64,000 bases of DNA from Pseudomonadota bacterium (GTDB lineage: Bacteria > Pseudomonadota > Gammaproteobacteria > Burkholderiales > Rhodocyclaceae), in the NCBI GenBank assembly GCA_018261895.1, contig JAGTRT010000025.1, positions 1-64,000 on the forward strand, in the 5' to 3' direction. The translations under genes were made by a program, and so were the position numbers. The notes under the pieces are model-generated. The model saw nothing but the letters and a program-made list of their open reading frames with translations, searched no databases and was not told the DNA's origin. Shown here one piece after another: positions 200 through 50,268 of the stretch (within the stretch, counting starts at the first letter, position 1; the number at the start of each line of letters is the position of its first letter).

Positions 200-700
200 T
201 CACCCTCGCCTCAATAGCGCCGCCCGCAAATCCGGCGCACTGGTCTTTGCATCAAGCCAGATACCGAAAAACCACCGCGCGAAATCGGCGTCGGCAACTT
301 CGCCGAGCAAACGGCCGTTGAAGTAGAAACGCGCGGAACCGGGCACGTATTCTCCGATGATGAAATCGCCTTCCTTCACGTTGGGGAAGATGCGGGTCAT
401 CTGCTCTCCCCAGCACTTGAGCGCCACCTCATCGGCGCCGAGCGCGCGCATTTCCTTGACGCTGGCGTCGGCAATGGCGGCACCGGCGAGGGTGCGCTTG
501 TAGTCGAGGCGCAGGGCGAGCGGCGGGCGTTGCGGGTCGTCGCCGGCCCACAGCGTGGCTTCGTAGACGAGGAAGCCGAAGCGGCGGAACTGGCCGTTGC
601 CCCAGCGTTTGAGGCCGGCCGTCGGGTCGGTGTTGGCGAAGGCGGCGAACGGCGCGACCGCCAGCGCGAGCAACAGCCGGCGACGGCCGCCCGAGGCCAT
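200..700 (-). CDS. Chalcone isomerase-like periplasmic protein
   Basis: 166 residues. The N-terminus is a clear secretion signal: basic GGRRR, then a hydrophobic stretch, then an Ala-x-Ala-type site near residue 20. The mature part carries a phenylalanine/glycine-rich FYFNGRLLGEV-type stretch and a C-terminal WFFGIWLD segment, as in the bacterial chalcone-isomerase-like family (Chalcone_3), whose members are mostly of unknown function. It is the last gene of a five-gene stress/lipid operon, 67 nt after the CFA-synthase-like gene. The start ATG (698-700) lies at the edge of the 39-bp interspersed repeat and has no strong Shine-Dalgarno sequence. Family assignment is from recognition; enzymatic activity is not implied. 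Confidence 0.75.
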   Translation of the reverse strand: MASGGRRRLLLALAVAPFAAFANTDPTAGLKRWGNGQFRRFGFLVYEATLWAGDDPQRPPLALRLDYKRTLAGAAIADASVKEMRALGADEVALKCWGEQMTRIFPNVKEGDFIIGEYVPGSARFYFNGRLLGEVADADFARWFFGIWLDAKTSAPDLRAALLRRG

Positions 701-738
701 TTCATTTTTGGCCGTTTTTTCCGGTTGACCGTGGGATT
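699..738 (+). repeat. 39-bp interspersed repeat, copy 1
   Basis: Matches the consensus ATTTC-A-ATTTTGGCC, then about 10 variable bases, then GGTTGACCGTGA. Lies between the CFA-synthase-like gene and the chalcone-isomerase-like gene; its left end contributes the start codon of the latter. Confidence 0.85.
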
Positions 739-767
739 CGCTGGTGCGAGCCCCCGGCGCCACCAGA

Positions 768-1952
768 TCAACGATGCGTGAGTTCAAATTGGACGACATC
801 GATATTTCCGGCCAGGAAGCCGGCCTCGCAGTAGCAAAGGTACATGCGCCAGAGTCGGCGGAAGGGCTCGTCGAAACCAAGCTTCTGGATTTCGGGCCAG
901 TTGGCTTCGAAAGCGTGGCGCCATTCGGCCAGGGTCTTGGCGTAGTCCTGGCCGAAGGCGTATTCGTTGCGGACGATCAGCCCCTGTTTGGCCGCCGCCG
1001 CGCGGAAGGCGGCGCGCGAGGGCAGCATGCCGCCGGGGAAGATGTATTGCTGGATGAAATCGGTGCTGCGCCGGTATTCGGGGAAGATGTCGTCGCGGAT
1101 GGTGATGCTCTGGACGACCGCCCTGCCCTCGCTCTTGAGCGCCTTGGCCAGCGTCTTGAAGTAGGTCGGCCACCAGCGTTCGCCGACGGCTTCGAACATT
1201 TCGATGGAGACGACGTGGTCGAACTGTTCGTTGAGATCACGGTAATCCTGCAGGCGCAGATCGGCGCCCGGCACCCGTTTCTGCGCCCATTCAAGCTGGG
1301 CCGGCGAGAGGGTCAGTCCGGTCGTCTGCAAGCCGTCCTGCACGGCCATTTCGGCGAAGCCGCCCCAGCCGCAGCCGATTTCGAGGACGTTCTGGCCGGG
1401 CGCTGCCTTGAGGCAGTTCAGGATGCGGCGGTACTTGGCGTGCTGTGCCGTTTCGAGCGATCCGTCGTCGACCTCGCGGTAGATGGCCGAGGAGTAGCTC
1501 ATGCTCGGGTCCAGCCACAGCTTGTAGAAATCGTTGCCGAGGTCGTAGTGCGCCATGATGTTACGCTTGCTGCCGGCGCGGCTGTTGGCGTTGAGCCAGT
1601 GGCGTACGCGGGCGGCGAGCAGGCTGCGCCACGAGCCATAGACGGCGCGTTTGAGCTGTTCGCGATTGGCTGCCAGCAAGCGCAGCAGTCCGGTCACATC
1701 GGGCGAATCCCATTGGCCGTCGAGATAGCTTTCGGCCAGGCCGATGTCGCCGCGCGCCAGCACCTGGCCGAACATCGCCTCGTCGTGCACGTTGAGCGTG
1801 ACGCCATGTTCGCCGCTGCCAAACAGCGCGCTGGAGCCCCCCGGCAATCGAATTTCGAGCAGTCCGCCCTGCAGTTTTTCCAGCAGTTCGAAGACCAGTC
1901 GGGTGTCGCGCGCCAGTCTTTCGCTGCCGCGCAGGATCATCGTGTTGTTCAT
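768..1952 (-). CDS. cfa: Cyclopropane-fatty-acid synthase family SAM methyltransferase
   Basis: 394 residues, the usual length for the Cfa family. The SAM-binding glycine motif EIGCGWGG is at about residues 191-198, preceded by HYDLGNDFY (about 135-143), a family hallmark. Downstream QQYIFPGG and a late YCEAGF motif also fit. It methylenates or methylates unsaturated acyl chains of membrane phospholipids. Its ATG overlaps the stop of the DUF1365 gene (ATGA), so the two are translationally coupled. In this operon context (DUF1365, FAD oxidase, CFA-like) it may act in specialised fatty-acid modification such as methylated or furan fatty acids rather than plain cyclopropanation; that is inference. 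Confidence 0.88.
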   Translation of the reverse strand: MNNTMILRGSERLARDTRLVFELLEKLQGGLLEIRLPGGSSALFGSGEHGVTLNVHDEAMFGQVLARGDIGLAESYLDGQWDSPDVTGLLRLLAANREQLKRAVYGSWRSLLAARVRHWLNANSRAGSKRNIMAHYDLGNDFYKLWLDPSMSYSSAIYREVDDGSLETAQHAKYRRILNCLKAAPGQNVLEIGCGWGGFAEMAVQDGLQTTGLTLSPAQLEWAQKRVPGADLRLQDYRDLNEQFDHVVSIEMFEAVGERWWPTYFKTLAKALKSEGRAVVQSITIRDDIFPEYRRSTDFIQQYIFPGGMLPSRAAFRAAAAKQGLIVRNEYAFGQDYAKTLAEWRHAFEANWPEIQKLGFDEPFRRLWRMYLCYCEAGFLAGNIDVVQFELTHR

Positions 1953-2710
1953 TTTGTCGGTTCCCGGAGAGGTTGAGGGACGTGGGCGCCGCGGAACGGC
2001 ACCCCTTTGAGCCACAGCTTCAAGGCTTGCCAGTGGATGCGGAACATCACGCCGGCGGTGAGGAAAGGCATTTTCAGGAAGGCGCCGAGCAGGGCCGTGG
2101 TCGACCAGGCCCGGCCCTTGCCGGAAATCGAGGTGAGCAGCAATTCGCCCTCGGCATCGTCGTAGTCGATGCGGGCCAGCGGCACGGGGCGGTCGAGATG
2201 GAAGCGGAAGCGATAGCCGCCCTCGATCTCGTTGAAGGGCGAGACGTGGAATTCCTTGGTCGCGCGCAGCTCCTGCCCGTCCTGCAGGGGTGAACCGTCG
2301 GCGTTGTGCAGCAGGTAGCTGTGATAACCGCCGAAGGTATTGTTCACCTCGGCCAGGATGGCGATCAGCGCGCCCTCGCGATTGCGGCAATACCAGAAGC
2401 TGACCGGATTGAAGACGTAGCCGAAGACGCGCGGGAAGCATTGCAGCGTGATCTCGCCGTCGTCCGGCAGGCCGCGCTGGCGCAACTGGGCCTGGATCCA
2501 GGGCAGGATCGGGCTGCCGTCGCGGGCGCCGTGGTCCTTTTGCCGGAAGCTGAGCACGTTCCAACGGTCAACCGAAAAAATCGGGCAATTTGCAAATGCC
2601 AGCTGGCGGACCGGCAACTGGATGTAGAAGACCGGGTAGACAAAGGCATTGACCGCCGGGCGCAGGCGCCGGTGCATGACGTGACCGAGGAAGAGGCGTG
2701 GGCGGTTCAT
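1949..2710 (-). CDS. DUF1365 family protein
   Basis: 253 residues. It begins with the family pattern LFLGHVMHRRLRP and continues with SF..KDHG near residue 55, FGYVFNPVSFWYC in the middle and a KEFHVSPF motif, all typical of DUF1365. The function is unestablished. The gene is almost always found between an amine-oxidase-like flavoprotein and a CFA-like methyltransferase, as here, suggesting a joint role in fatty-acid modification under photo-oxidative stress. Start ATG at 2708-2710, 7 nt after the stop of the flavoprotein gene. A weak match to the interspersed repeat lies within codons 37-49. Confidence 0.85.
   Translation of the reverse strand: MNRPRLFLGHVMHRRLRPAVNAFVYPVFYIQLPVRQLAFANCPIFSVDRWNVLSFRQKDHGARDGSPILPWIQAQLRQRGLPDDGEITLQCFPRVFGYVFNPVSFWYCRNREGALIAILAEVNNTFGGYHSYLLHNADGSPLQDGQELRATKEFHVSPFNEIEGGYRFRFHLDRPVPLARIDYDDAEGELLLTSISGKGRAWSTTALLGAFLKMPFLTAGVMFRIHWQALKLWLKGVPFRGAHVPQPLREPTK
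2562..2601 (-). repeat. 39-bp interspersed repeat, degenerate copy 2
   Basis: On the minus strand it reads ATTTGCAAATTGCCC, a T-run, then CGGTTGACCGT, about 28 of 34 consensus positions. It falls inside the DUF1365 coding region, where the encoded FSVDRWN is itself family-conserved, so this may be a chance match. Confidence 0.35.
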
Positions 2711-2717
2711 GACAGCC

Positions 2718-4040: not shown

Positions 4041-4050
4041 TCTTGTCTCC

Positions 4051-4611: not shown

Positions 4612-4628
4612 GTTCAGCTCCTTTTTGA

Positions 4629-4643
4629 TTTGTCCTAGACAAA
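4629..4643. promoter_or_regulatory. Palindromic operator 1 (TTTGTC-N3-GACAAA)
   Basis: Perfect inverted repeat TTTGTCCTAGACAAA, placed just downstream of the predicted -10 of the peroxidase operon and 18 nt before its ATG. A second site matches 14 of 15 bases. Probable binding site of the adjacent MerR-family regulator (inference). Confidence 0.65.
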
Positions 4644-4659
4644 CTGGACGTTTGTTCGT

Positions 4660-4717: not shown

Positions 4718-4719
4718 TA

Positions 4720-12728: not shown

Positions 12729-12770
12729 GATTTCGATTTTGGCCGTTTTTTCCGGTTGACCGTCGAATCG
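12729..12770 (+). repeat. 39-bp interspersed repeat, copy 3
   Basis: ATTTCGATTTTGGCC, T-run, CCGGTTGACCGTCGAATC; near-perfect consensus. Sits in the 70-nt gap between the convergent amidotransferase and yajQ genes, ending 4 nt from the yajQ stop. Confidence 0.9.
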
Positions 12771-18632: not shown

Positions 18633-18659
18633 CACTGCATGGAAAAGGAACTTAGAGCC

Positions 18660-19286
18660 ATGACATTTGCAGAACAAAAACTACCAATGCGAAGCAAACA
18701 ATCAGGCGTCACGTTGGTTGAATTAGTCATAGCCATAGCAATATTTGCCATATTGCTTGCTATGGCGGTCCCCAGTTTCGAGAGCTTAATTGCATCAACG
18801 CGCGTATCGACAACAACTAACGACCTTCTGGCCGCATTGGCTCAAGCTCGTTCAGAAGCAATCCGCCGAGGCCAACGAGTCACGATCTGCGCCAGCGCAA
18901 ACGGAGCCCAATGTGCCAATGCGGGTAGCTGGAATCAAGGGTGGATTATTTTTACAGACGGAATTCCGATGGGCTTACCTAATGCAGCCCCCCCCAATGC
19001 CATCGTTGACAACGGAGAGACGATTCTTTCTGTTGCGCCAGCAACTCCGGCAAATATCGCGATTCAGGGCCAGGCCGCAGTTGGTCAATATGTTTCTTTC
19101 GCCTCGAACGGGCAAAGTCGCACCATTGCCAATGCTACTCAAACGGGAACAATTGAAGTCTGTACAACCTCCCAGACCATTAGTGATCTGCGACGAGCAC
19201 GCGATCTGATCATTAGCGCAAGCGGTCAGGTGATCATGCAAAGCCCAACCCTGAATCCCATACCCAACAATTGCCCAAACCCATGA
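18660..19286 (+). CDS. fimT: GspH/FimT family type IV pseudopilin
   Basis: About 208 residues. A class III prepilin signal, SGVTLVELVIAIAIFAILLAMAVP, is cleaved after the Gly, followed by Glu at +5 and a GspH-like head domain. Minor pseudopilins of this type help prime assembly of type IV pili at the inner membrane. ATG 18660 is preceded by GGAA at 9 nt; ATGs at 18639 and 18687 are alternatives. First of six overlapping or tightly spaced genes (fimT-pilV-pilW-pilX-pilY1-pilE). The region is clearly AT-richer than its surroundings. Confidence 0.85.
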   Translation: MTFAEQKLPMRSKQSGVTLVELVIAIAIFAILLAMAVPSFESLIASTRVSTTTNDLLAALAQARSEAIRRGQRVTICASANGAQCANAGSWNQGWIIFTDGIPMGLPNAAPPNAIVDNGETILSVAPATPANIAIQGQAAVGQYVSFASNGQSRTIANATQTGTIEVCTTSQTISDLRRARDLIISASGQVIMQSPTLNPIPNNCPNP

Positions 19287-19738
19287 AACACGAACATTTA
19301 TATTACGCAAGTAATCAGCAGGGCGTCGCTTTGCTGGAGGTTCTTGTCGCCGTCGTGATTCTTGCAGTCGGGTTGTTAGGCATGGCGGGGCTACAGGCTC
19401 GTGCATTGCAGCAAAATCACAGTAGCGTTCAGCGCTCTCAGGCAGTCATCCTCAGTTACTCTATCCTTGACTCTCTTCGCGCAGATCGAGCCAACGCTGT
19501 AGCAGGTGCGTACAACATGGCCAATACATGCGCGGCCCCCGCCCCAACTGGCGCGATTGTTGGTGACACGATAAGCAATTGGTTGACTGCAATCCAAAAT
19601 AGATTTGGTAACAACGGGGCTAGCTGTGGCTTTGTGAATTGCGATATCACTGGTCAGTGCACAGTCAGAATTATCTGGGATGACAGCCGCGCCGGTGGCA
19701 GTCAAGTTGAAACTTTTGAAATTCGATCAAAAATATGA
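19283..19738 (+). CDS. pilV: Type IV pilus modification protein PilV
   Basis: 151 residues. Prepilin signal QQGVALLEVLVAVVILAVGLLGMAGLQ with the Gly cleavage site and Glu at +5, followed by the PilV-typical RALQQNHSSVQRSQA helix. A minor pilin of the priming complex. ATG at 19283 overlaps the fimT stop (ATGA). Two late Cys pairs could form disulfides in the head domain. Confidence 0.87.
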   Translation: MKHEHLYYASNQQGVALLEVLVAVVILAVGLLGMAGLQARALQQNHSSVQRSQAVILSYSILDSLRADRANAVAGAYNMANTCAAPAPTGAIVGDTISNWLTAIQNRFGNNGASCGFVNCDITGQCTVRIIWDDSRAGGSQVETFEIRSKI

Positions 19739-20775
19739 CGATTCATCATCTTCCCCGCCAAAGGGGGTTCACTTTGGTCGAGTTAATGATTGCAATGGCT
19801 TTAGGACTGTTTTTGGTCGGCGCAGCACTTAATGTTGTTTTCGCCAACCGCCAGGCCTTCCAGATTGCAGAAAATCAGTCACGCCTTCAGGAGAACGCCA
19901 GAGCGGCCTTCGAACTTCTTGCCCACGATATCCGAGCAGCAGGAGGAAATCCTTGTGGCGCAAACCGGGTTACGAACAATTTAACCAATAGCGCCGCTCT
20001 TTGGTGGGCCAACTGGGCTGCTGGGCCAATACGTGGATTTGAGAACAGCGCAGCGGGAGACGGAGCTCATGGGATAGTCCCAGTAGGCGCCGCTATGAAT
20101 AACCGCCTTGCAGGGTCCGATGCCATCATCGTGATGAGTGCAAATGCAGGAGAAACCGTCGTAGCAGCCCAGCATAACAGTGGTGCAGCCCCCCCCAGTT
20201 TTCGCGTAACAAATAATCAGCATGGCTTCACCCAAGGCAGCGTTATTTTGGCTTGTGACGAAATGGATGCCGTGATTTTCGAGGCAACAAATATACAACC
20301 TGTTCCTGCAAATACGACCATAGAACATGCTGCGGGTGGAATTGCACCGGGCAACATCCAAGCAAACCTCGGAAAAACCTACGCAAATGGCACTTTTCTC
20401 TCCAGACTCAGAGCATCATTCTGGTATGTTGGTAGCAACGGCCGGGGCAGCAATTCACTGTTCCGCTTAGGCGTTGACGGACAACCGGCGCCGCGCCTTG
20501 ATGAAGTCGTTGAAGGCGTAACGAATATGCAAATCCAGTACATTGAAAGAAATCCCGCAACAGGCCTATTGACGGCGGGCACCTGGATAAATGCAAATCA
20601 AATCGCGTCATGGCCGTTCGTGTTGACATCGCCACGAGTTGAAGCTGTACGCATTCAACTTTCCCTTAGCAGCCGCGATCAGGTTGGCATTGATCCTGCG
20701 ACAGGCAACCCCAAGACGATTGATACAGAACTCAACGAGACAATATATTTGCGTAATCGGGAATACAACCCATGA
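19735..20775 (+). CDS. pilW: Type IV pilus assembly protein PilW
   Basis: 346 residues. Class III signal QRGFTLVELMIAMALGLFLVGAALN, then the PilW-type continuation NRQAFQIAENQSRLQENARAAFELLAHDIRAAG. The long variable C-terminal head is normal for this minor pilin. Start ATG overlaps the pilV stop (ATGA), and its own stop overlaps the pilX start. Confidence 0.88.
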   Translation: MTIHHLPRQRGFTLVELMIAMALGLFLVGAALNVVFANRQAFQIAENQSRLQENARAAFELLAHDIRAAGGNPCGANRVTNNLTNSAALWWANWAAGPIRGFENSAAGDGAHGIVPVGAAMNNRLAGSDAIIVMSANAGETVVAAQHNSGAAPPSFRVTNNQHGFTQGSVILACDEMDAVIFEATNIQPVPANTTIEHAAGGIAPGNIQANLGKTYANGTFLSRLRASFWYVGSNGRGSNSLFRLGVDGQPAPRLDEVVEGVTNMQIQYIERNPATGLLTAGTWINANQIASWPFVLTSPRVEAVRIQLSLSSRDQVGIDPATGNPKTIDTELNETIYLRNREYNP

Positions 20776-21488
20776 TTAACTTTCCAGAGCTTCGCTCGCC
20801 CACTCTAGGCTTGGGCAACCGACAACAAGGCGTTGCACTTGCGATCTCGTTGATTCTTCTTGTTGTATTGTCTTTGGTGGGCTTATCAACCGTCCGCACG
20901 GTGACCCAACAGGAAGGAATGTCATCACAAAGCCATGATCGCAGTTTGGCATACCAATTCGCAGAGGCTGCTCTACGCGAAGGAGAACAACAGGCTCGCA
21001 TTCAGTCCCAGACGGCCAACGCGGCAATCCCCACAGATCAATATATTGCCGATGGAATATGTAATGCTGCTGCAGTAAATCGTTGCGCCAACGGACTCTG
21101 TTCAACACCAGATCCAGACTGTGACCCTCGTTGGCAAAACTCCGCTTTCAATAGCTGGACCACATACACGGGCCTTCCTGCCATCGTAAGCCAAACCGGG
21201 AACATTTTGATTGGTGCAGTAGGAGCCTCCCAGCCACAATACTTTATCGAGATATTGCGCCCAGTTGGAACTGCTGTCTGCACGACACCGGTGGGACCTA
21301 ACTTTGACAGAGACTGTAATCAGAAATTTCCAGACCCTGATAGCTCGCTCCCCTGTTCTGCGGGATATCCGGCTCCTCCCGGCCAACAATATTGCAATTT
21401 CTATCGCTACCGAATTACCGCCCGAGTCCAAATGGCCGGTAGAGCGACAGTAATGCTCCAATCAGTTTTCTCTGTTCAACCTAATTAA
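20772..21488 (+). CDS. pilX: Type IV pilus assembly protein PilX
   Basis: 238 residues. After a short leader, RQQGVALAISLILLVVLSLVGLSTVR is the PilX N-terminal helix, lacking the usual Glu at +5 as many PilX proteins do. RSLAYQFAEAALREGE follows. The head domain contains several Cys residues. It is part of the PilVWXY1E priming and adhesion complex, and overlaps pilW by 4 nt. Confidence 0.86.
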   Translation: MINFPELRSPTLGLGNRQQGVALAISLILLVVLSLVGLSTVRTVTQQEGMSSQSHDRSLAYQFAEAALREGEQQARIQSQTANAAIPTDQYIADGICNAAAVNRCANGLCSTPDPDCDPRWQNSAFNSWTTYTGLPAIVSQTGNILIGAVGASQPQYFIEILRPVGTAVCTTPVGPNFDRDCNQKFPDPDSSLPCSAGYPAPPGQQYCNFYRYRITARVQMAGRATVMLQSVFSVQPN

Positions 21489-21520
21489 CCGGACTTTGCA
21501 TAGAGCACGGAGACCACATC

Positions 21521-24500
21521 ATGACTCGAAATTGCTCCCGCAGCTTCGCCATTCGGCCCATCGCAGCATTCTTGGCCTTGACAATCCTGCATAGCCCTAT
21601 GTCTGTAGCAGCTCTGACGATACCCAATATCCCATTGCAAGCAGTGAATTCAGCTGAACCCAACATCATGATGATTTTGGACGACTCCGGATCGATGCAA
21701 TGGGACTATTTGCCTGACGATATCAATGGGGTAACCAATCCCATCAACTACATCTATCCCACGACAACATCAATTTTCGGCGGATCCTTTTATAACAACG
21801 TAACAGTCGACACAAACACGGCAAATCGTTGGGCAAGAATTTTGCGCTCGTCCGCGCATAACAAAATTTACTATGACCCGACCATCCTCTATCTCCCGTG
21901 GAGCAAGGAAGACGGTTCTCTTTGGTTGCCTGCCGACCCAACGCGCGCTTACCACAATCCGGCCAATCAGGGAGCAGGCTTTCGTAACTTAACTCAGGAT
22001 CTCACTCAGGCTGCGACGTGGCTTGACAATGACTCCGCCTACAGAAATGCAACCAGAACATATTACCCCGCAACTTATTTTAACTATAACGGAGGGGCAA
22101 TTACGGCAGGCACCAGCTATACCAAGGTAGAGATACGATCAACGACCCCGACCTATCCAAAGGCGGCGGCGCGAACTGATTGTAAGACGATTGCAAATCT
22201 TTGCAGCTACCAAGAGGAAATCCAGAATTTTGCAAACTGGTATAGCTATTACCGAGCACGCGTTCTGACCGCTCGGGCTGGTATAGGCCGAGCCTTTGCC
22301 AACCAGGGTTCCAATGTCCGACCGGGATTTTCGACAATCAATGCCACAGGAAATAGCGTAGATGGCGTCACAACCGATACCGTCATTCAAGGCGTTAGAA
22401 AATTCACAGGGACGGACCGCACCAATTTTTTCGCTTATCTATATAACTGGACTATTCCTGCACAGGGGACTCCATTGCGTAAAGCTTTGGATGATGTCGG
22501 GAAATACTACAGCCGCGCCGACACGCGAGGTCCATGGAGCACCACGCCAGGCATTGCAGGTGGTACGGAACTAACATGCCGCCAAAGCTATTCAATCTTA
22601 ATGACCGACGGATATTGGAACGGTGCCGCAGCAAGCACTGCCAATGCCCGGTTAAACAATGACAATACTGCGGGTGATCGCACAGGTCAGGCCATAACCG
22701 GCCCAAATAGCCAAAGTTATCTCTACACGCCTAATTCGCCGTTTAGTGATGCTTGGAGCAATACGCTCGCAGATGTTGCCATGTATTACTGGAAGAACGA
22801 CTTGCGCACCACTCTTGCCAACGAAGTGCCGCCAAACTCAGCAGACCCTGCTTTTTGGCAGCACATGGTTACTTTCGGCGTTGGGCTAGGTGTGTCCGGA
22901 TCTGTTAGTCCAACAGCAGCTTTTGCGGCCATTTCCACTGGCGCCACCATCAATTGGCCGCAACCCACGACAAATCCAGCGCTGTTGGACGATTTGGTTC
23001 ATGCTGCCGTTAATGGACGTGGGGGATTTTTTAGCGCACAAAATCCAACCCAATTCGCAACCGCTTTAACAGACACTCTAAATTCCATTGCGCAACGTAC
23101 GGGTTCTGCGGCATCAATCGCGGCAAACAGTACGCAAATTTCGACAAACACTAAAGTGTTCAATGCTAAGTTTGACAGCAGCAAGTGGTCTGGCGAACTT
23201 GAAGCATTCGCAATTACATCAAGTGGTGTTGCCGCGACACCGACTTGGGTTGCTTCTTCAAATATTCCGTCACCAGCATCACGAAAAATTTTTACCCGAT
23301 CAGGCGGAAGCGTCGTTTCCTTTCAATGGGCAAATTTAACTGCTGCGGACCAAACCTTACTGACAAGCGCCGACGTATTGGACTACGTTCGTGGCGTTCG
23401 TACCAAAGAACAGCAAAATGGTGGGACCCTACGCAACCGAAGCACGGTTCTTGGAGATATTGTCGATTCCTCACCGACCTACGTCACTGATTCAGATATT
23501 GTCCTGGTCGGAGCCAATGATGGAATGCTGCATGCATTTAATGCAACAACAGGTACTGAGTTGTTTGCATACATTCCTAGCGCAGTCATGCCCAAACTCG
23601 TCAATTTGTCCCAGGTTGCATATACACACACCTACTTTGTTGATGGCGATATTGCGGTGTCACCCCAAACACTGACGCCGGCACACAATTATCTAGTTGC
23701 CAGTTTGGGACGTGGCGGAAAAGGTTTGTTTGGCTTAGACGTCGCTTCACCATCTAGCTTTGGCGCCACTAACGTATTGTGGGAATATTTCAGCGCTACT
23801 GACAATGATCTTGGCTACATCATCGGCACTCCAATCATTGCAAAGTTGAACGATGGCACGATTGCCGCAATTGTCGGAAATGGATACAACAGTACGAACG
23901 AAAGCGCAGTACTCTATATATTTGACCTAGCGACAGGCTCACTAATCAAAAAACTGGATACTGGAGTAAGCGGTAACAATGGATTGGCCTCACCTGGAAT
24001 ATTTGATGCTGATAACAATGGGACTGTTGACTACATCTACGCTGGAGATCTCAAGGGAAATGTCTGGAAAATCGATCTTTCCAGTGCGAATCCGACTGCC
24101 TGGGATTTTTCTTTCAAAACAGGCGCAATACCACAACCATTTTACGTTGCGAAAGATCCTTCAAACTCAGTTCAGCCAATCACCGTCCCGATTACGGTAG
24201 TCAAGAATGACGTTTCATCAGATGCAAATTTCGGGAAACGATTTGTAATTTTTGGAACGGGAGCGTATTTCAGAAGTACTGACCCAACTGACGCACAAAT
24301 TCAGACTCTTTACGGCCTAATTGACACAAACGTTCAATTAAGCGGACGCGCTGGATTAACCCAGCGTACCGTAGCCGCAAACGGACTACTTTCCGGCAAA
24401 ACAGTCCGAACTTTTTCTTCGGCTGTAGCTAACGACATGGTCGGAAAATCTGGCTGGTATTTGGACCTGAAAACATCGGCTGGTGTAGCAGAAGGCGAAC

Positions 24501-24868
24501 GAGTTACTACATCTGCAGATGTCTACAACCTTGCGGAGCCAGTCCTGATTTTCAGCTCTGTTATTCCTATCAATGACCCATGCAAACCGGGCGGGAAAGG
24601 CTATGTCAACGCGATTAATCCATATACCGGTGCAAGTCTGACCAATGGTTTTTGGGACATCAACAATGACAACAGTTTTGCCAACGACACCTTGCTGGGT
24701 GCCTTGGTGGGCTCCGTAGACCTGGGTATAGGCATGCCAACCAAAGGGCGCGTCATAGGCGATTTGTTTGGTGCAGGTGGATCGTCCGGTAACGTCACCA
24801 GCATAAAGATCAATACCGGAGCAAAGAAAACCAAGCGCGTTTCTTGGCGCGAAATCACGAGGGATTAA
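21521..24868 (+). CDS. pilY1: PilY1-like pilus tip adhesin/biogenesis protein
   Basis: 1115 residues. Signal peptide (to about residue 30). A von Willebrand A-like domain with MIDAS motif DDSGSMQ (about 54-60) follows, then a C-terminal beta-propeller (from about 650) typical of PilY1. An EF-hand-like calcium loop with D-x-D-x-N-x-T-x-D spacing is near residue 825, followed by YAGDLKGNVWKIDL. PilY1 sits at the pilus tip, opposing PilT retraction in a calcium-dependent way and mediating adhesion and surface sensing. 33 nt after pilX, with GGAG before the ATG. Confidence 0.92.
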   Translation: MTRNCSRSFAIRPIAAFLALTILHSPMSVAALTIPNIPLQAVNSAEPNIMMILDDSGSMQWDYLPDDINGVTNPINYIYPTTTSIFGGSFYNNVTVDTNTANRWARILRSSAHNKIYYDPTILYLPWSKEDGSLWLPADPTRAYHNPANQGAGFRNLTQDLTQAATWLDNDSAYRNATRTYYPATYFNYNGGAITAGTSYTKVEIRSTTPTYPKAAARTDCKTIANLCSYQEEIQNFANWYSYYRARVLTARAGIGRAFANQGSNVRPGFSTINATGNSVDGVTTDTVIQGVRKFTGTDRTNFFAYLYNWTIPAQGTPLRKALDDVGKYYSRADTRGPWSTTPGIAGGTELTCRQSYSILMTDGYWNGAAASTANARLNNDNTAGDRTGQAITGPNSQSYLYTPNSPFSDAWSNTLADVAMYYWKNDLRTTLANEVPPNSADPAFWQHMVTFGVGLGVSGSVSPTAAFAAISTGATINWPQPTTNPALLDDLVHAAVNGRGGFFSAQNPTQFATALTDTLNSIAQRTGSAASIAANSTQISTNTKVFNAKFDSSKWSGELEAFAITSSGVAATPTWVASSNIPSPASRKIFTRSGGSVVSFQWANLTAADQTLLTSADVLDYVRGVRTKEQQNGGTLRNRSTVLGDIVDSSPTYVTDSDIVLVGANDGMLHAFNATTGTELFAYIPSAVMPKLVNLSQVAYTHTYFVDGDIAVSPQTLTPAHNYLVASLGRGGKGLFGLDVASPSSFGATNVLWEYFSATDNDLGYIIGTPIIAKLNDGTIAAIVGNGYNSTNESAVLYIFDLATGSLIKKLDTGVSGNNGLASPGIFDADNNGTVDYIYAGDLKGNVWKIDLSSANPTAWDFSFKTGAIPQPFYVAKDPSNSVQPITVPITVVKNDVSSDANFGKRFVIFGTGAYFRSTDPTDAQIQTLYGLIDTNVQLSGRAGLTQRTVAANGLLSGKTVRTFSSAVANDMVGKSGWYLDLKTSAGVAEGERVTTSADVYNLAEPVLIFSSVIPINDPCKPGGKGYVNAINPYTGASLTNGFWDINNDNSFANDTLLGALVGSVDLGIGMPTKGRVIGDLFGAGGSSGNVTSIKINTGAKKTKRVSWREITRD

Positions 24869-24874
24869 GTGGTG

Positions 24875-25267
24875 ATGAAACGAACACAGACTGGATTCAC
24901 ATTAATTGAATTGATGGTTGTCGTAGCTGTTATTGCAATCATCACAGCAATCGCTTACCCCAGCTATCAAAACTCCATCCGGAGAACCCATCGAATTGCA
25001 GCCTCTGGTTGCATGCTGGAGTTGGGGCAGTTTATGGAGCGCTTCTATTCAACGAACATGATGTACACGAATGCCGTTCTGCCGATAACTCCATGTCAGA
25101 ATGAACTGGCAAATTTCTATCAGTTCCAGTTCAATGCAGCCCCTGCAGCAAATACGTATTCGTTAAATGCAGTACCTATCGGGTCCCAGGCAGCGGATAC
25201 ATGCGGAGTATTAAATGTTGATCAAGCCGGAACTCGTACTCCCAATCTCCCGGAATGCTGGAGGTAG
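24875..25267 (+). CDS. pilE: Type IV pilin PilE-like protein
   Basis: About 130 residues. Prepilin signal QTGFTLIELMVVVAVIAIITAIAYPSYQ with Gly cleavage site and Glu at +5, then the IRRTHRIAASGCMLELGQFMERFY helix of PilE-type minor pilins. The four later Cys suggest disulfide loops. The start is ambiguous: in-frame GTG codons at 24869 and 24872 are better spaced from the GAGG at 24859 than the ATG used here. The stop lies 3 nt from the stop of convergent ispH. Confidence 0.87.
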   Translation: MKRTQTGFTLIELMVVVAVIAIITAIAYPSYQNSIRRTHRIAASGCMLELGQFMERFYSTNMMYTNAVLPITPCQNELANFYQFQFNAAPAANTYSLNAVPIGSQAADTCGVLNVDQAGTRTPNLPECWR

Positions 25268-27114: not shown

Positions 27115-29905
27115 GCGCACGCTCCTCGCCATTACCATGCAGGTTGCTGATGCAACGGCCACACAAGCCTGAATGCGCCGGATTCGCGCCCACATCCTCA
27201 CGAACGTGCCAGCAACGCTCGCACTTCGCATATTCAAGCGGCGTCGCGATTACCTGTTCGCTCTCGTCGTGGATTGTTACGGTCGACGAGCAAATAAGCA
27301 CAAATTTCAAATCCTCACCCAGTGACGACAGGGCATCGAATTTCTCGCCCGCGCAGTGAATTTCGACAGCGGCCTGCAAGGCCGAGCCGATCTTGCCCGC
27401 TTCGCGTTGCGCCTCGAGCGCCTTGGTCACATCGGCGCGAACCGCACGAATCAGAGCCCACTTCGACAGCAGATCGCCCTCACCCGTCTGCGCAGGCAAT
27501 TCGTGCCAGACCTGGAACATCACCGAATCGTCTGCGTTCCCGGTCAATACCTGCCAGACCTCCTCAGCGGTAAATGCCGTGATGGGGGCAAGAAGGCGGA
27601 CGAAGGCCTGGGTGACATGCCATAGCGCCGACTGGGCCGAGCGACGGGCCACCGACTTTGGCGCCGTCGTGTAGAGGCGGTCCTTCAGGATATCGAGATA
27701 GAAACCGCCCAGATCTTCGGAACAGAAGGTCTGCAAGGCCTGGACCACACGATGGAACTCGTAGCGGTCGTAATCAGCGCGGCAACCATCCTGCAGTTCG
27801 CGGGTCAGCGCCAGGGCATAGCGATCGATTTCGAGCCATTGATCAACCGGCAACATGTCCTGAGCGGCGTCGAAATCCGACACGTTGGCCAACAGGAAGC
27901 GCAGGGTGTTACGGATGCGGCGATAGCCTTCGACCACCCGCTTCAGAATTTCGTCGGAAATCGTCAATTCGCCGGAATAATCAGTCGACGCCGTCCACAG
28001 GCGCAGGATATCGGCGCCCATCTTGTCGGAAACCTGCTGCGGGGCAATGACATTGCCCTTGGATTTGGACATCTTGTGGCCCTTGCCATCGACCACAAAG
28101 CCGTGCGTGAGCAAGGCCTTGTAGGGCGCCCGGCCATCGATTGCGCATCCCGAAAGCAGCGACGACTGGAACCAGCCACGATGCTGATCCGAGCCCTCAA
28201 GATAAAGATCGGCCGGATAGCTGTGTTCGGCCGCGTGCGAACCGCGCATGACGTGCCAGTGCGTCGTTCCCGAATCGAACCAGACGTCGAGCGTATCCTT
28301 CATCTTGACGTACTGCTCCGCCTCGGCGCCCAGCAGTTCCGCTGCGTCCAGGCTGAACCAGGCTTCGATACCCGACTTTTCAACGCGCTGGGCGACCTGC
28401 TCGATCAATTCGGCTGTGCGCGGATGCGGCAGTCCGGTTTCCTTGTGCAGGAAGAATGGAATCGGCACCCCCCAATTGCGCTGACGCGACACGCACCAGT
28501 CGGGACGGGTCTTCATCATGGCTTCGAGACGAGCCCGGCCCCACGCCGGGAAGAATTGCGTTTCGTCGACGGCACGCTCGGCGATCCAGCGCAGTGTCGA
28601 CGCGTCTTCATTCGTCTTGTTCTCCATGCCGATGAACCACTGCGTCGTGGCGCGGAAGATGATCGGCGTCTTGTGCCGCCAGCAGTGCGGGTAGCTGTGC
28701 TGAATTTTTTCGTTTTTCAGCAAGCGACCGCGGGACTCCAGTTCCTGCAGTACCAGCGGATTCGCCTCCCAGACAGTCTTGCCGGCCAGATCACCGACCG
28801 ACAGGGCGGGCGTGGTGCTGATGAAACGGCCATCGTTGCCAACAGGGTTATTGACCGGCAGGCCGTATTTCTTGCCGACGTTGTAGTCATCGACGCCATG
28901 CGCCGGTGCGGTATGAACCAGACCGGTACCAGCCTCGGTGGTAACATGCGTGCCACAGATGATCGCCACGTCGCGATTCTGGAACGGATGCTTGAGCAGC
29001 AATTGATCGAGCTTGTCGCCCTTGCACGAGGCAACGATCTCGGCCGCCAGGCCATAGCGTTGCAGGCAGGCTTCAGCCAGTTCATGAACGAGGATCAACG
29101 AACCCTTGGCCGTTTCGTAGAGATCGTACTGAAGTTCGGGATGCACGCTGACGGCCTCATTGGCGGGCAGCGTCCAGGGCGTCGTTGTCCAGATGACGGC
29201 AAAAGCCGGTCCGCGCAGATGGGTGAGGCCGAAGGCATGCGCCAGTTTCTCGGCATGATTCTCGTGCACTTCGAATGCGACATCGATGGCCGGCGACGAC
29301 TTGTCCTCGTATTCGACTTCAGCCTCGGCCAAGGCCGAGCCGCAATCCAGACACCAGTTGACCGGCTTCAGTCCCTGATAGAGATAGCCCTGCTCCATGA
29401 TCTTGCCCAGCGCGCGGATTTCACCGGCCTCGGCGGCGTAGTTCATGGTCAGATAGGGATTGCCCCAGTCACCCAGCACGCCCAGGCGGATGAAGTCCTT
29501 TTTCTGACGCTCAACCTGCTCGGCCGCGTAGGCGCGGGACAATTCGCGAACCTTGTCGCCGGGAATATTCTTGCCGTGCTGCTTTTCGATCTGATGTTCG
29601 ATGGGCAGGCCATGGCAGTCCCAACCGGGCACGTAGGGTGCGTCGAAACCAGACAGCGTTTTCGAGCGGACGATGATGTCCTTGAGCACCTTGTTGACGG
29701 CGTGGCCGATGTGAATATCGCCGTTCGCATAGGGTGGGCCATCGTGCAGCACGAAGCGGGGACGACCGGCACAAACCTCACGGATGCGCTGGTAAAGCTT
29801 TTTCTCCTGCCACTGGGCAACCCACTGCGGCTCGCGCTTGGGCAAATCGCCGCGCATCGGGAAAGCCGTATCCGGCAGGTTCAGGGTATCTTTGTAATCA
29901 GCCAT
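27107..29905 (-). CDS. ileS: Isoleucyl-tRNA synthetase
   Basis: 932 residues, usual length. Class I motifs HIGH ([11 protein letters not shown], about residue 65) and KMSKS (GHKMSKSKG, about residue 600); the editing domain lies between. A C-terminal zinc finger [10 protein letters not shown]...CGRC is complete. Charges tRNA-Ile. Ten nt after ribF. Confidence 0.97.
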
Positions 29906-32036: not shown

Positions 32037-32056
32037 CGCTCCACCCCGGTAACGGT

Positions 32057-32097
32057 ATTTCGATTTTGGCCGTTTTTTCCGGTTGACCGTGAGATCG
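32057..32097 (+). repeat. 39-bp interspersed repeat, copy 4
   Basis: ATTTCGATTTTGGCC, T-run, CCGGTTGACCGTGAGATC; near-perfect consensus. It fills most of the 68-nt gap between the convergent diguanylate cyclase and amidase genes. Confidence 0.9.
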
Positions 32098-33894: not shown

Positions 33895-34959
33895 GATCAG
33901 GACTCCACGGTGGATTACGCGGCGCTCAAGGAAAAAATCCGCGAGGCCGGCAGGAAACTCGGCTTTGCTGCCGTTGGCGTGGCGCGGGCCGAACCGGGCG
34001 CCGCTGTCGACAAAATGCGGGAATGGCTGGCCGAGGGCTGCCACGGCGAGATGGATTATATGGCCCGCCATGCCGATTTGCGCGCCAACCCGGCGCAACT
34101 GCAACCCGGAACCATCACCGTCATCAGTGCCGTGATCGACTACCTTCCCCACCACGAAACGGCCGAAGGACCAGATCAAGCGGCCATTTCACGCTACGCC
34201 CAGGGGCGTGATTACCACAAGGTCGTGCGCAGCCGCCTGCAAAAGCTGGCCGACGCGATTGCCGCGCAGATCGGGCCGTTCGGCTACCGCGTGTTTTCCG
34301 ACTCGGCGCCGGTCATGGAAGTCGAATTCGCCCGTCAGTCCGGCCTCGGCTGGCGCGGCAAGCACACGCTACTGCTCTCGAAACAAGGATCGTGGCGCTT
34401 TCTCGGCGACATCTACACCGACCTGCCGCTGCCGCCCGACGAACCCATCGAGGAGCACTGCGGCACCTGTACGGCCTGTCTCGACGCCTGCCCGACCGGC
34501 GCCATCGTTGCGCCATACAAGGTCGATGCCCGGCGCTGCATCAGCTACCTGACCATCGAACTGGCCGGGCCGATTCCCGAGGAATTCCGCCCGCTGATCG
34601 GCAACCGGATTTACGGCTGCGACGACTGCCAGACATGCTGCCCGTGGAACCGCTTTGCGCAGACCGGCGACCCGGAATTTGCCCCGCGCCACGGCCTGGA
34701 TACGGCGACCTTGATCGAGCTGTTCAACTGGACGGAAGCGGAATTCGACCGGCGGCTGGCCGGCAACCCGATCCGCCGCATCGGGCATGAACGCTGGCTG
34801 CGCAACATCGCCGTGGCGCTGGGCAACCTGCCCGCCTCGTCCTCGGGCGCAGCGAATCTCACGGTCAACCGGAAAAAAGCGCTAAAAATGAAATCCGACC
34901 ATCCGTCGGCGCTGGTCCGCGAACATGTGGCCTGGGCGCTTGCCCGGCTGGAGGGGTAG
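33889..34959 (+). CDS. queG: Epoxyqueuosine reductase
   Basis: 356 residues. Cobalamin-binding N-terminal part with VEFARQSGLGWRGKHT, then two 4Fe-4S clusters: CGTCTACLDACPTGAI and CDDCQTCCPWNRFA. It reduces epoxyqueuosine to queuosine in tRNA. The C-terminal HEAT-like part is interrupted by about 14 residues (about 322-336, TVNRKKALKMKS) encoded by an in-frame copy of the 39-bp interspersed repeat, just before the conserved VREHVAWAL motif. The ATG overlaps the divergent tsaE start by 6 nt. Confidence 0.94.
   Translation: MHDQDSTVDYAALKEKIREAGRKLGFAAVGVARAEPGAAVDKMREWLAEGCHGEMDYMARHADLRANPAQLQPGTITVISAVIDYLPHHETAEGPDQAAISRYAQGRDYHKVVRSRLQKLADAIAAQIGPFGYRVFSDSAPVMEVEFARQSGLGWRGKHTLLLSKQGSWRFLGDIYTDLPLPPDEPIEEHCGTCTACLDACPTGAIVAPYKVDARRCISYLTIELAGPIPEEFRPLIGNRIYGCDDCQTCCPWNRFAQTGDPEFAPRHGLDTATLIELFNWTEAEFDRRLAGNPIRRIGHERWLRNIAVALGNLPASSSGAANLTVNRKKALKMKSDHPSALVREHVAWALARLEG
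34855..34896 (-). repeat. 39-bp interspersed repeat, copy 5 (inside queG)
   Basis: Reverse complement of the consensus: TCACGGTCAACCGGAAAAAA, 10 variable bases, then ATGAAATC. Translated in frame as part of QueG near its C-terminus. Confidence 0.85.
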
Positions 34960-39924: not shown

Positions 39925-40009
39925 GTGTTGGCGACTGGTTGTTAGGTATTAGATATTAGCGGGCAGGAAAAAGGCGGCGGTTTTGATCCCGTCGCCTTCT
40001 CAGCGAGCC

Positions 40010-40050
40010 TTTCACGGTCAACCGGAAAAAAGGCCCAAAATTGAAATGTC
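40010..40050 (-). repeat. 39-bp interspersed repeat, copy 6
   Basis: TTCACGGTCAACCGGAAAAAA, then GGCCCAAAATTGAAATG. Ends right at the stop codon of the Rieske gene. Confidence 0.88.
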
Positions 40051-45107: not shown

Positions 45108-45136
45108 TCGCGCCACGGAAGCCCCGCCATGGGGCT

Positions 45137-45174
45137 TCAACGGTCAACCGGAAATATTGGCCAAAATTGAAATC
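45137..45174 (-). repeat. 39-bp interspersed repeat, copy 7
   Basis: CAACGGTCAACCGGAAATATTGGCCAAAATTGAAATC: both conserved arms are exact, with the middle 10 bases divergent. In the gap between convergent folE2 and rplS. Confidence 0.88.
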
Positions 45175-45633: not shown

Positions 45634-46398
45634 TTACTCACCGCATTGCTCCTCTCCGGAAATCTCCGTGAGTAGTTGCGCTTCTTCCGCGGTCAAACTG
45701 CGGTGCGCCAGCAAATCCGGCCGGCGCTTCCGGGTACGCGCCAGCGACTGCTTGAGTCGCCAACGACGAATTCTTTTGTGGTCGCCGGACATCAACACCT
45801 CCGGCACCGCCACCCCCTCATAAACCTCAGGGCGGGTGTAGTGCGGACAATCCAGCAAACCACCGACAAACGAATCTTCCACCGCCGAAGCGGCATCTCC
45901 GAGCACACCCGGCAACTGGCGGACAACGGCATCGATCAACACCATCGCCGGCAACTCGCCACCGGACAGCACAAAATCTCCGATCGACATTTCTTCATCG
46001 ACACAGCGCTCGATCAGACGCTCGTCAATCCCTTCATAACGACCGCAAAGAAGGATCAGCCCTTCATCGCCCGTCGCCAACTGCATCACCCGTTCATGGG
46101 TGAGCGGTGCGCCCTGCGGCGAGAGGTAGATGACCCGGCTTTTCGCCAGCCCCGCCTCACGCTGCTGCACCTTCGCCGCGTTGATCGCCTTCTCCAGCGG
46201 CCCCGGCTGCATCAGCATGCCCGGCCCGCCCCCGAAGGGACGATCATCGACGCGCCGCCAGGTGTTCTCGGCGAAATCGCGAGGATTCCAGCCTTGCCAC
46301 ACCCAGCGCTGCTCTTCCAGCGCCCGGCGCGTAATCCCGCTCTGCGTCACGGCGGCGAACATCTCCGGGAAGATGGTCACGCAGTCGAACCGGATCAC
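45634..46398 (-). CDS. trmD: tRNA (guanine37-N1)-methyltransferase
   Basis: 254 residues. SPOUT knot motifs [16 protein letters not shown] and [11 protein letters not shown] bind [14 protein letters not shown] starts the fold. It methylates G37 of tRNAs with a GG reading to keep frame. GTG at 46398 overlaps the rimM stop (GTGA) and gives the usual N-terminus; an in-frame GTG five codons upstream is less likely. Confidence 0.95.
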
Positions 46399-46907
46399 CA
46401 GTCGCTGCCCCACTCCACGCGGATCAGTCCCGCTTCCTTCTCTACCGACAGCACCACTGCCGAAACAAATGGCAGCAGACGCTCGACCTTGTCGTCACCC
46501 AGCACGCGAAGCACCGAATTGGCGCCAGTTTCAATCAAACCGACCACCTTGCCGATGCGCTCATCTGCCGCATTGACGACCTCCAGACCGATCAGATCGG
46601 CCCAGTAAAACTCATCGCTGTCGGTCGTCGGCAACGCATCGCGCGGCGCCCCGACCAACACCCCCTTCATCGACTCGGCGGCAGAACGGTCTTCAATGCC
46701 ATCCAACAGCACCACCAGACCATCGCCGTGCGCCTTCAAGCGTTTCAGCTTGCATTCGCGCCACGGCTCACCTTCCCGGGACAGCCACCAGACGGGCATT
46801 TCCGCCCAGGCCATCGGATCATCGCCGAAGGGGTACAACCACAGCCAGCCCTGAATCCCGTAAGGGTCGGCCAGCCGACCCAGTACGACGATCTCGTTGC
46901 CAGCCAA
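46395..46907 (-). CDS. rimM: 16S rRNA processing protein RimM
   Basis: 170 residues. N-terminal barrel [20 protein letters not shown] and a PRC-barrel domain [14 protein letters not shown]. It assists maturation of the 30S head with S19. A TTG codon (46905-46907) is the apparent start; no nearer ATG or GTG fits. Nine nt after rpsP, overlapping trmD by 4 nt. Confidence 0.93.
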
Positions 46908-46916
46908 AACTAGAAC

Positions 46917-47171
46917 TTAGGCAGCTTGTTGAGCGGCGTGTTGCTTGACCAGACGGGCAACAGTCGGGGACAGCTGGGCACCGTTCTTCTGCCAGTAAGC
47001 CAAGCGATCGACGGAAACACGCAGAGCTTCAGCATTGCCGGAAGCGACCGGGTTGTAGAAGCCGATACGCTCAACGAAACGGCCGTCGCGACGATTGCGG
47101 GAATCGGTAACAACCATGTTGTAGAACGGACGCTTCTTGGCGCCACCACGGGCAAGACGGATAACAACCAT
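46917..47171 (-). CDS. rpsP: 30S ribosomal protein S16
   Basis: 84 residues. [20 protein letters not shown] and [14 protein letters not shown] are diagnostic. First gene of the rpsP-rimM-trmD-rplS operon with a clear promoter upstream. Confidence 0.97.
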
Positions 47172-47206
47172 TGGAATACTTTCGTTAGCTGGAAAAAAGA
47201 CCGGAG

Positions 47207-47234
47207 ATTATAGCGCTTTATCAAGGAAAAACAA
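47207..47234 (-). promoter_or_regulatory. Promoter of the rpsP-rimM-trmD-rplS operon
   Basis: Minus-strand TTGTTT (47229-47234), 16-bp spacer, perfect TATAAT (47207-47212), 35 nt before the rpsP start. Confidence 0.65.
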
Positions 47235-47325
47235 GCCACTTAGACCATTGAAAATACGATGGGATCAAAGCCTGCTGCCAGACCCCACTGGCAAGAACGC
47301 AAAATTTTGTTATTCTGCAAAAGCC

Positions 47326-48834: not shown

Positions 48835-49645
48835 CACTGGCGGCAATCAATCCGCCAAACAGCACCACCGCCCAGGACAGGTGCAACCAGACCAGGAAAA
48901 CCGGAAACGCCGCAAAAGCACCGTAAATGCTTTTCAGCATGGCCGAACTGACCAGAAAGATCTCGAAGAATTTCTGCATCCCCGAGAACGCCAGCGTGGC
49001 AAAGATGCCACCTGTCAGTGCTGAGAGGCGCGTCACCTTGGCGTTCGGCACGGCGTAATACAAAAACGAGAAGAACAGGCCGAGCAGAATGACAGCCACT
49101 GCCTTCAGTGCAAAGCGACGGAACCACATCGGCTCGTCAAACCAGCCCAGCGAGGTGGTTACGGCAAACGACATCGCACCCGCCACGGCGCCGAGCACGA
49201 ACGGCCAGACAGCCATCACGAAGGCGTATAGGCGCAACCTGGCCAGCCACGGACGCGGCTCGACCTGCCAGAGGTGATTGAAGGCGCGCTCGATGGTGTG
49301 CATCAGCATGAACGCCGTCACGCTCAGCACCGCAATACCGGCCAGCGTCAGACTCTGCGCCTTGTGCGAGAACTTGCCGATATTCCCGGCAATCGCCACC
49401 GCGGCACCCGGCGGCAGCAGCGCTTCGCGGATCAGCAGGTCCAGCCGCGCGACCAGGGTATCGAGATAAGGCACCGCATCGGCCACCGACAACACGACTG
49501 CAACCAGCGGCACCAGCGCCATCAGGGTCGTGAAGGCCAGCGCCGAACTGGTCTGCATCATGTTCTCGCTATGGAAGCGCCGGAATATGCCGGACGCCTT
49601 GGCGGGCTTGAGGCGGTTGCGACGAGAACGGGAGTGGTTTTGCAT
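48812..49645 (-). CDS. YihY-family inner membrane protein
   Basis: 277 residues with six hydrophobic helices. ALAFTTLMALVPLVAV, the MHTIERAFNHLWQV centre and FPVFLVWLHLSWAVVLFGG near the end are hallmarks of the YihY/virulence factor BrkB family (once mis-called RNase BN). Function unresolved. ATG at 49645 follows a short basic lead. Its 3' end overlaps the convergent 502-aa gene by 23 nt. Confidence 0.9.
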   Translation of the reverse strand: MQNHSRSRRNRLKPAKASGIFRRFHSENMMQTSSALAFTTLMALVPLVAVVLSVADAVPYLDTLVARLDLLIREALLPPGAAVAIAGNIGKFSHKAQSLTLAGIAVLSVTAFMLMHTIERAFNHLWQVEPRPWLARLRLYAFVMAVWPFVLGAVAGAMSFAVTTSLGWFDEPMWFRRFALKAVAVILLGLFFSFLYYAVPNAKVTRLSALTGGIFATLAFSGMQKFFEIFLVSSAMLKSIYGAFAAFPVFLVWLHLSWAVVLFGGLIAASVNRPEKR

Positions 49646-49666
49646 GGGGCCGTATAATAGCCGACC

Positions 49667-50257
49667 ATGCAAGACATTCTCGTCCTCTATTACAGCCACC
49701 GCGGCTCAGTTCGCGCTCTGGCCGAACGCATTGCAGCCGGTATCGAGTCGGTCCCCGGCATGCAGGCTCGCCTGCGTACCGTGCCCCGCATTTCCGCAAC
49801 CTGTGAAGCGACCGAACCGGCAATTCCGGACGCCGGCGCCCCCTACGTCGAACTGGCCGACCTCGCGGAATGCGTCGGTCTGGCGCTCGGCAGCCCGGTT
49901 CGCTTTGGCAATATGGCAGCCCCCATGAAGTATTTCTGGGACGGCACCATCGCCGCCTGGCAGAACGGCACACTGGCGGGCAAGCCGGCCTGTGTCTTCA
50001 CGTCCAGCGGCAGTCTGCACGGCGGCAATGAAAGCACCCTGCTGAGCATGATGCTGCCCCTGCTGCACCATGGCATGCTGCTCATGGGCTTGCCCTTCAC
50101 CGAACCTGAGCTATCGACCACAAACGCTGGCGGCACGCCTTATGGTGCGAGCCACATTGCGGGTGCAAACGGTAATCCGACGCTGACCGAAGCCGAGAGT
50201 CGCCTGGCTTTCCTGCAGGGACAACGCATTTCAAATTTGGCCAAAAAATTGAGTTGA
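49667..50257 (+). CDS. WrbA-like NAD(P)H:quinone oxidoreductase (flavodoxin fold)
   Basis: 196 residues. FMN phosphate loop ILVLYYSHRGSVRALAE, the YVELADLAECVGLALGSPVRFGNMAAPMK segment and the HGGNESTLLSM block fit the WrbA/NQO IV family, which reduces quinones by two electrons with bound FMN. ATG at 49667 is preceded by the yihY start region in the opposite direction. The end is encoded by interspersed repeat copy 8, and its TGA overlaps the TTG of the next gene. Confidence 0.88.
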   Translation: MQDILVLYYSHRGSVRALAERIAAGIESVPGMQARLRTVPRISATCEATEPAIPDAGAPYVELADLAECVGLALGSPVRFGNMAAPMKYFWDGTIAAWQNGTLAGKPACVFTSSGSLHGGNESTLLSMMLPLLHHGMLLMGLPFTEPELSTTNAGGTPYGASHIAGANGNPTLTEAESRLAFLQGQRISNLAKKLS

Positions 50258-50268
50258 CCGTGAAATCC
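50229..50268 (+). repeat. 39-bp interspersed repeat, copy 8
   Basis: ATTTCAAATTTGGCC, divergent middle AAAAAATTGA, then GTTGACCGTGAAATCC. It spans the stop of the WrbA-like gene and supplies the TTG start of the DUF2069 gene. Confidence 0.82.

Follow-up and report, generated by a model that had tools for sequence, protein, structure and literature searches.

What is the short DNA word that recurs on both strands of a 64,000-nucleotide stretch from a Pseudomonadota bacterium of the Rhodocyclaceae (GenBank assembly GCA_018261895.1, contig JAGTRT010000025.1, positions 1 to 64,000), and what keeps it there? This whole stretch, hereafter the window, is contig C35 of the genome that we denote G000, a 3.30-Mb draft in 93 contigs that is 85% complete. 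A first-pass annotation of the window had described a 39-bp element in seven copies and proposed either a small mobile element resembling repetitive extragenic palindromes (REPs) or a dispersed protein-binding site. We find a word of 42 positions that occurs hundreds of times in G000 and is spelled differently in other species of the genus. It stands, in our judgement, about an even chance of being an uptake-signal-like sequence.

The genome of G000 was searched with a full-spacing pattern allowing at most 2 mismatches, which gave 423 near-exact copies (215 and 208 by strand) and none in the reversed control, so that the genome-wide copy number is above chance, as the first-pass annotation had proposed to check. 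A half-site search with the same mismatch limit found 298 places (153 and 145 by strand) compared to 1 in the reversed control. The exact pattern with both arms as first described was too strict and had no matches. A profile built from 122 copies of G000 and G002 DNA was run over 864 kb and identified 157 sites that score 14 bits or more, whereas reversal of this DNA left no site; its training copies come from the very DNA that was then scanned, which consisted of 464 kb of G000 (contiguous parts of four contigs with matches, plus the window) and 400 kb of G002 (stretches chosen around matches). The 464 kb of G000 hold 77 of these sites, about one per 6 kb, and the genome density of the word is about one per 6-8 kb. 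The copies are thus real and a chance origin is excluded.

All seven copies described in the window are present, a few bases from where they had been placed, as 42-mers that score 42.7-66.7 bits in the profile. Three lie in convergent gaps at 12729..12770 (+, 64.8 bits), 32056..32097 (+, 64.2 bits) and 40007..40048 (-, 65.7 bits; common to G100), and a fourth occupies the convergent gap between a folE2-like gene and the gene for ribosomal protein L19 at 45133..45174 (-, 65.2 bits; degenerate form in G100). The copy at 34854..34895 (-, 57.8 bits; common to G100) is at the 3' end of a queG-like gene, that at 50227..50268 (+, 42.7 bits; degenerate form in G100) spans the stop codon of an FMN-reductase-like gene, and that at 698..739 (+, 66.7 bits) is within a predicted minus-strand gene. 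A location in gaps at gene 3' ends, as had been suggested, therefore holds for the four copies in convergent gaps and loosely for the two that lie within or overlap the final 100 bp of a gene, but not for the copy at 698 nor for the 41 of 70 G000 sites of at least 30 bits that are inside predicted genes. A copy listed earlier as doubtful at 2562-2601 is real, at 2557..2598 (-, 39.4 bits), but degenerate, and a weak ninth copy is found within a gene at 27272..27313 (-, 23.5 bits).

Aligned copies from G000 and G002 give the consensus nATTTCRAWTTTGGSCnWWWTTTCCGGTTGACCGTGRnAnnC, which has sharp edges and carries 1.278 bits per position over 42 positions, about 54 bits, a figure partly inflated because the copies were picked by pattern. 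The middle had been described as ten bases of variable sequence; in the aligned copies its nWWWTTTCC spacer belongs to the word, and the three W columns, left open in the search pattern, are A or T almost exclusively. Columns 17 and 18 are A or T in 69/69 G000 and 71/71 G002 copies, and the column that precedes them is C or G in 1% (G000) and 11% (G002). Because R and S, each at one column, had been written into the search pattern, only N columns count as independent evidence. The layout is a core, a W tract, about 5 bp and a second W tract, the two tracts lying beside the core about one helical turn apart. The right part, GGTTGACCGT, is constant; beyond it just one A, four bases on (GRnA), is nearly fixed, and for this reason neither the GAAAT end nor the terminal inverted repeat reported earlier is a general feature. 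The columns just right of the core are preferably A or G in G000 and mostly G in G002. Columns restricted to A or T would fit a protein that reads groove shape, and they make decaying copies of a master element an unlikely source.

Comparison of related genomes indicates how copies arise. In 159 kb aligned between G000 and G002 (84%), 16 of 24 sites are shared; inspected by eye, five of the eight unshared sites correspond to a relative in the other genome that is degenerate or longer, and three to none. Between G002 and G085 seven of nine sites are shared, one has a longer relative and one has none, and all sites are shared between G000 and G100 (4/4) and between G011 and G061 (4/4). Identical positions in other genomes, which the first-pass annotation had considered a pointer to function when shared by distant genera, are thus found among species of the genus. 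At the four sites that are truly absent (47.7, 43.9, 23.0 and 17.8 bits) the place of the 42 bp is taken in the other genome by different sequence of 36-45 bp, with nearly identical flanks at two of them; no empty site, of the kind that an inserted element leaves in sister genomes, was found among these. From 27 shared sites, one of which was dropped by score limits (G002 serving in two of the comparisons), 26 orthologous pairs were obtained. All are in the same relative orientation, and the core is nearly fixed while the flanks drift: differences affect 6 of 260 cells in the ten core columns and 138 of 832 in the other columns, most of all in those immediately to the right of the core. Some relatives of the word are longer, carrying about 18 additional middle bases that contain TTTCACGTAG (presumably similar to half of a parS site); they were seen at about 45679-45737 of G000 contig C11 and about 328244-328303 of G085 contig C1. 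Several synteny breaks between G000 and G002 and between G002 and G085 have a copy at the break; most have none.

The gene recG, fetched from 30 species and readable in 27 (G073, G069 and G022 were missed), carries the word at the same codons in 14 of the 27, at 29-57 bits, and the other 13 score below 0. Nine of the 14 word-bearing genes keep the length of the 13 word-free ones. Identity between G085 and G005 in this segment is 0.61, compared to 0.85-0.87 in its flanks; in the two word-free pairs compared it is kept at 0.81 and 0.88. In the cases examined, by a comparison of the kind applied in PMC1626085, the word arises by substitution rather than by insertion. Whether it is an uptake tag or a protein-binding site, the word is strong enough to overwrite segments of both RecG and an ABC-ATPase-like protein.

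Perfect copies of the core are far more frequent than one-mismatch copies, unlike in the reversed control. In G000 the core, CGGTTGACCGT, has 52 perfect and 33 one-mismatch occurrences (reversed control, 0 and 22), and in G002 the counts are 81 and 40 (control, 2 and 31).

Genes were called with our own hexamer scorer, and their starts are approximate. The 70 G000 sites of at least 30 bits comprise 41 inside genes, 15 in tandem gaps, 10 in convergent and 4 in divergent gaps, that is, 0.10 per kb in coding sequence and 0.94, 1.87 and 0.24 per kb in the three kinds of gap. The 96 G002 sites give 0.05 (coding), 1.25 (tandem), 3.39 (convergent) and 0.53 (divergent) per kb. In tandem gaps the core centre is at most 60 bp from the upstream stop codon in 12/15 (G000) and 27/39 (G002) cases. 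Copies inside genes are sense or antisense in ratios of 21/20 in G000, 10/20 in G002 and 1/8 in G085, and some lie deep within long genes, which we take from their family likeness to encode RecG, SelB, MnmG, a P-type ATPase and CobQ. Over whole genomes there is no orientation bias: the strand balance given above for G000 is matched by 175/178 in G002 and 189/178 in G085. Spacing in G000 is more regular than random (coefficient of variation 0.74 vs 0.94, P 0.015); the regularity is not significant in G002 (P 0.13) or G100 (P 0.68). Two overlapping, oppositely oriented pairs were found, at L097:7354-7431 and L128:7931-8008. Both have a 6-bp overlap and facing cores that form a 78-bp near-palindrome, with the same 36-bp offset at different loci.

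The dxs protein of the window shares 94% identity with that of the Rhodocyclaceae metagenome-assembled genome (MAG) OU015322.1 and 83% with its counterpart in an Azonexus MAG, and we place the host, presumably, near Azonexus and Dechloromonas. Seventy-six genomes of its genus were scanned with a model of the G000 type at E 0.01; searches over 40 genomes used stricter filters, at which weak matches are lost. At least one match was found in 68 of the 76, 15 genomes had at least 85 and eight had none. Outside the genus the same model matched 8 of 146 genomes, 1-3 times each. The word is spelled in dialects. That of G000 is CCGGTTGACCGTG; that of G061 and G011 is a palindrome around CACGGTCGACCGTG, flanked to left and right by A/T tracts. 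The sequence YACGGTCGACCGTR occurs at 240 places in G061 and at 1 or 2 in six others of the 150 genomes that were sampled from the family (four of these six in the genus). Counts of k-mers recovered the G000 word in G085, G000 and G100, the palindrome in G061 and GCGGTCGACCGCAGC-like words in G029; no comparable word emerged from 200 kb of G066. Between the two palindrome arms, inner bases are complementary more often than expected by chance, in 69 of 98 cases in G011 (shuffle mean 42.9, maximum 58) and in 107 of 196 in G061 (shuffle mean 81.0, maximum 99). Reading by a protein does not suffice, in our view, to account for this; hairpin-templated correction of the palindromes by template switching is our guess. 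The stretches L155-L164 of G061 also hold a short repeat of the type CTCCGCCTCT, with 14-16 occurrences in 200 kb.

The window also encodes a putative component of a pilus. A minor pilin with a ComP_DUS domain (PF16732, 1.8e-21) is encoded at 24869..25267 on the plus strand and ends a cluster of GspH/PilW/PilX/PilY1-type genes (18639-24868). The ComEC family is present over its curated cut-off in 68 of the 76 congeners and at E 0.001 in 75. In G085 (C1:2720194-2765330) and G002 (C33:109264-144789) comEC (TIGR00361) is in collinear pieces tens of kb apart, and it is split as well in G060, G089, G067, G005, G099 and G017, with break points that recur close to model positions 145-166 and 590. The two G085 pieces are separated in part by a 20-kb stretch that encodes TniB, TniQ, a ThiF/JAB-domain protein and a WYL protein, as if Tn7-like islands landed in comEC, and contains no copy of the word. 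In the literature we found no report of competence for the genus (searched as Dechloromonas; Azonexus was not searched by name), nothing joining Dechloromonas with an uptake sequence or an interspersed repeat, and nothing joining Rhodocyclaceae with a DNA uptake sequence; GGTTGACCGT as a text query returned only unrelated titles among the matches listed.

How could such a word be kept? We suggest that a pilus-based transformation machinery would read it as a tag on incoming DNA, and that tagged DNA of the same lineage would preferentially be recombined in. Copies would arise by point mutation at near-matches, and uptake bias, a form of molecular drive, would fix them wherever the local sequence tolerates them. 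The spelling would shift together with the receptor, which would yield species dialects. For this to hold, some protein of the uptake machinery would have to read the word, the bacteria would need to be naturally transformable or to have been so in the past, and the word would have to be maintained by uptake bias. Known uptake signal sequences (USS) and DNA uptake sequences (DUS) provide the model. The relevant excerpts of PMC1626085 describe for them the lack of an orientation bias, a preference for non-coding DNA with many coding copies, an excess of perfect cores, fairly even spacing that includes a few close pairs in opposite orientation, and an origin in place rather than by insertion. 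The word agrees with this description in its strand balance, in favouring non-coding DNA while having many coding copies, in its surplus of perfect cores and in its origin in place; its spacing is regular in G000 only. Like the USS of Pasteurellaceae such as Haemophilus influenzae, whose uptake core has rigid, bent AT tracts according to an excerpt of PMC7811141, the word has a core accompanied on one side by two A/T tracts, occurs on both strands and in coding as well as non-coding DNA, originates in place, has a surplus of perfect cores and varies between subclades. Like the DUS of Neisseriaceae, for which dialects are described in an excerpt of PMC3630211, it has a strong consensus and dialects around a shared short core, and a ComP-type minor pilin is encoded in the window. 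If the uptake proposal is true, self-recognising transformation has arisen in one more family. The genus, which is large, has several dialects and includes species that seem to lack the word, would then be available for testing the origin and turnover of such signals. More tentatively, since we lean slightly against it, the word may represent a third, independent origin of uptake signals outside the Neisseriaceae and Pasteurellaceae, with words several times longer than those known, dialects that range from an asymmetric core with A/T tracts to a long palindrome, and overwritten segments in conserved proteins, RecG among them.

A number of observations weigh against an uptake signal. The word differs from the USS in its core sequence and its family and in being 42 bp long with about 54 bits, where the USS is a 9-bp core plus AT tracts, and this is far beyond what uptake should need. 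With one copy in about 6-8 kb it is also sparser than the USS, whose density comes close to one per kb. Given this density and an uptake role that we infer, we liken the word to a DUS and do not file it as one. Unlike the DUS, a 10-mer without flanking motifs in the excerpts of PMC1626085, one dialect group is a long palindrome, and the complementarity of the palindrome arms in G011 and G061 is not predicted by an uptake tag. Gaps of less than 500 bp are not enriched (1 vs 4.8 expected in G000, 3 vs 3.7 in G002). The uptake proposal also leaves unexplained a strand lean in sampled stretches that flank the GC-skew switch in G085 (C1, near 2.4 Mb): strong copies number 13 plus and 6 minus below the switch and 27 minus and 10 plus above it (2.4-3.0 Mb), and further out, at 21 to 19, there is no lean.

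The competence genes and the evidence for origin in place weigh in the same direction at several points. The ComP_DUS domain is found in 70 of the 76 congeners, whether or not they carry the word, and its score shows no relation to the dialect, so the pilin in the window is only a candidate receptor. The ComEC model also matches 12 of 14 control genomes, and comEC is whole in the word-free G079, G004, G001, G094 and G012 but split in the word-rich G085, G002 and G005. The lack of competence reports for the genus in our literature search likewise counts against uptake. Both copies of an orthologous pair had to score, which favours a fixed core by selection of the pairs. Two of the four sites without a gap are weak (17.8 and 23.0 bits), and at the window site 34854 the stretch L031 has 29 bp where 42 stand. 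The recG gene is longer by 18 bp in four word-bearing species and by 9 bp in one, and it has no word in the word-rich G005 and G083.

The alternative that survives best, rather unlikely as we judge it, is that the copies are binding sites of an intracellular, lineage-variable chromosome-associated protein, such as a nucleoid organiser, a roadblock or an insulator between convergent genes; selection would keep several hundred sites, and the specificity of the protein would shift between species. The A/T-only open columns and the core fixed in orthologous pairs speak for such a protein, as do the enrichment between convergent genes and scarcity between divergent ones, the strand lean around the G085 skew switch, and a core that in G061, G011 and G029 is palindromic, like the site of a dimeric protein. 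To this extent, and with its species-specific spelling, the word agrees with the dispersed protein-binding site that was proposed at the outset. Sites of the matS, parS and FtsK-orienting polar sequence (KOPS) type have a cognate protein and a regional or polar distribution; here, where no cognate protein was sought, only the partial strand lean in G085 resembles this. A chromosome protein would be hard to reconcile with the rewriting of conserved proteins such as RecG and with congeners that seem word-free (the eight without a match and the 200 kb of G066). A coordinated re-spelling of hundreds of 42-bp sites between close species would be hard to achieve, and would be unusual if this explanation held. 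The excess of perfect over one-mismatch cores is, moreover, unlike what regulatory sites show according to the excerpts of PMC1626085.

A much less probable source, and in our view an improbable one, is an element of the REP type or a miniature inverted-repeat transposable element spread by transposition. REPs and their associated tyrosine transposases (RAYT) form families that number hundreds of copies, lie close to the 3' ends of genes and are spelled differently from species to species, and the word resembles them in each of these respects; its palindromes in G061 and G011 could also form hairpins. A linked RAYT was among the checks first proposed, and the Y1/RAYT transposase family (PF01797) was searched in six genomes with at least 40 copies. 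It has one match in the copy-rich G033 but none in G000, G002, G003, G005 and G028 (completeness 74-85% in G000, G003 and G028, 99-100% in G002 and G005), and 15 of 36 congeners have a match. The word further differs from REPs by its many coding copies and by the lack of an insertion footprint, the four replaced sites showing no 42-bp gap. Together with the origin of the recG copies in place, the co-orientation of all 26 orthologous pairs and A/T-only columns that neutral decay would not be expected to produce, this argues against the small mobile element of the first-pass annotation.

Least probable of all is an RNA-level signal, either a transcription terminator or a hairpin at mRNA 3' ends, which would suit the 3'-end and convergent placement and the arm compensation in G061 and G011 but agrees poorly with the even sense and antisense counts inside G000 genes (antisense prevails in G002, 20 to 10, and G085, 8 to 1), with many palindromes in which T precedes and A follows the stem, opposite to the polarity of a terminator (some have the right one), with copies deep in long genes and with the lack of any Rfam match in the window at gathering scores. 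An intrinsic terminator, a G+C stem followed by a T run in the orientation of the gene, was rejected on the 21 sense and 20 antisense copies and the mixed stem polarity.

The word is also met in contigs classed as viral, where it may reflect a prophage or carry-over of host DNA. A 16-mer of the core was found in seven viral contigs, two of which carry scoring copies: the IMG/VR contigs L291 and L292 have two each, at 28-54 bits.

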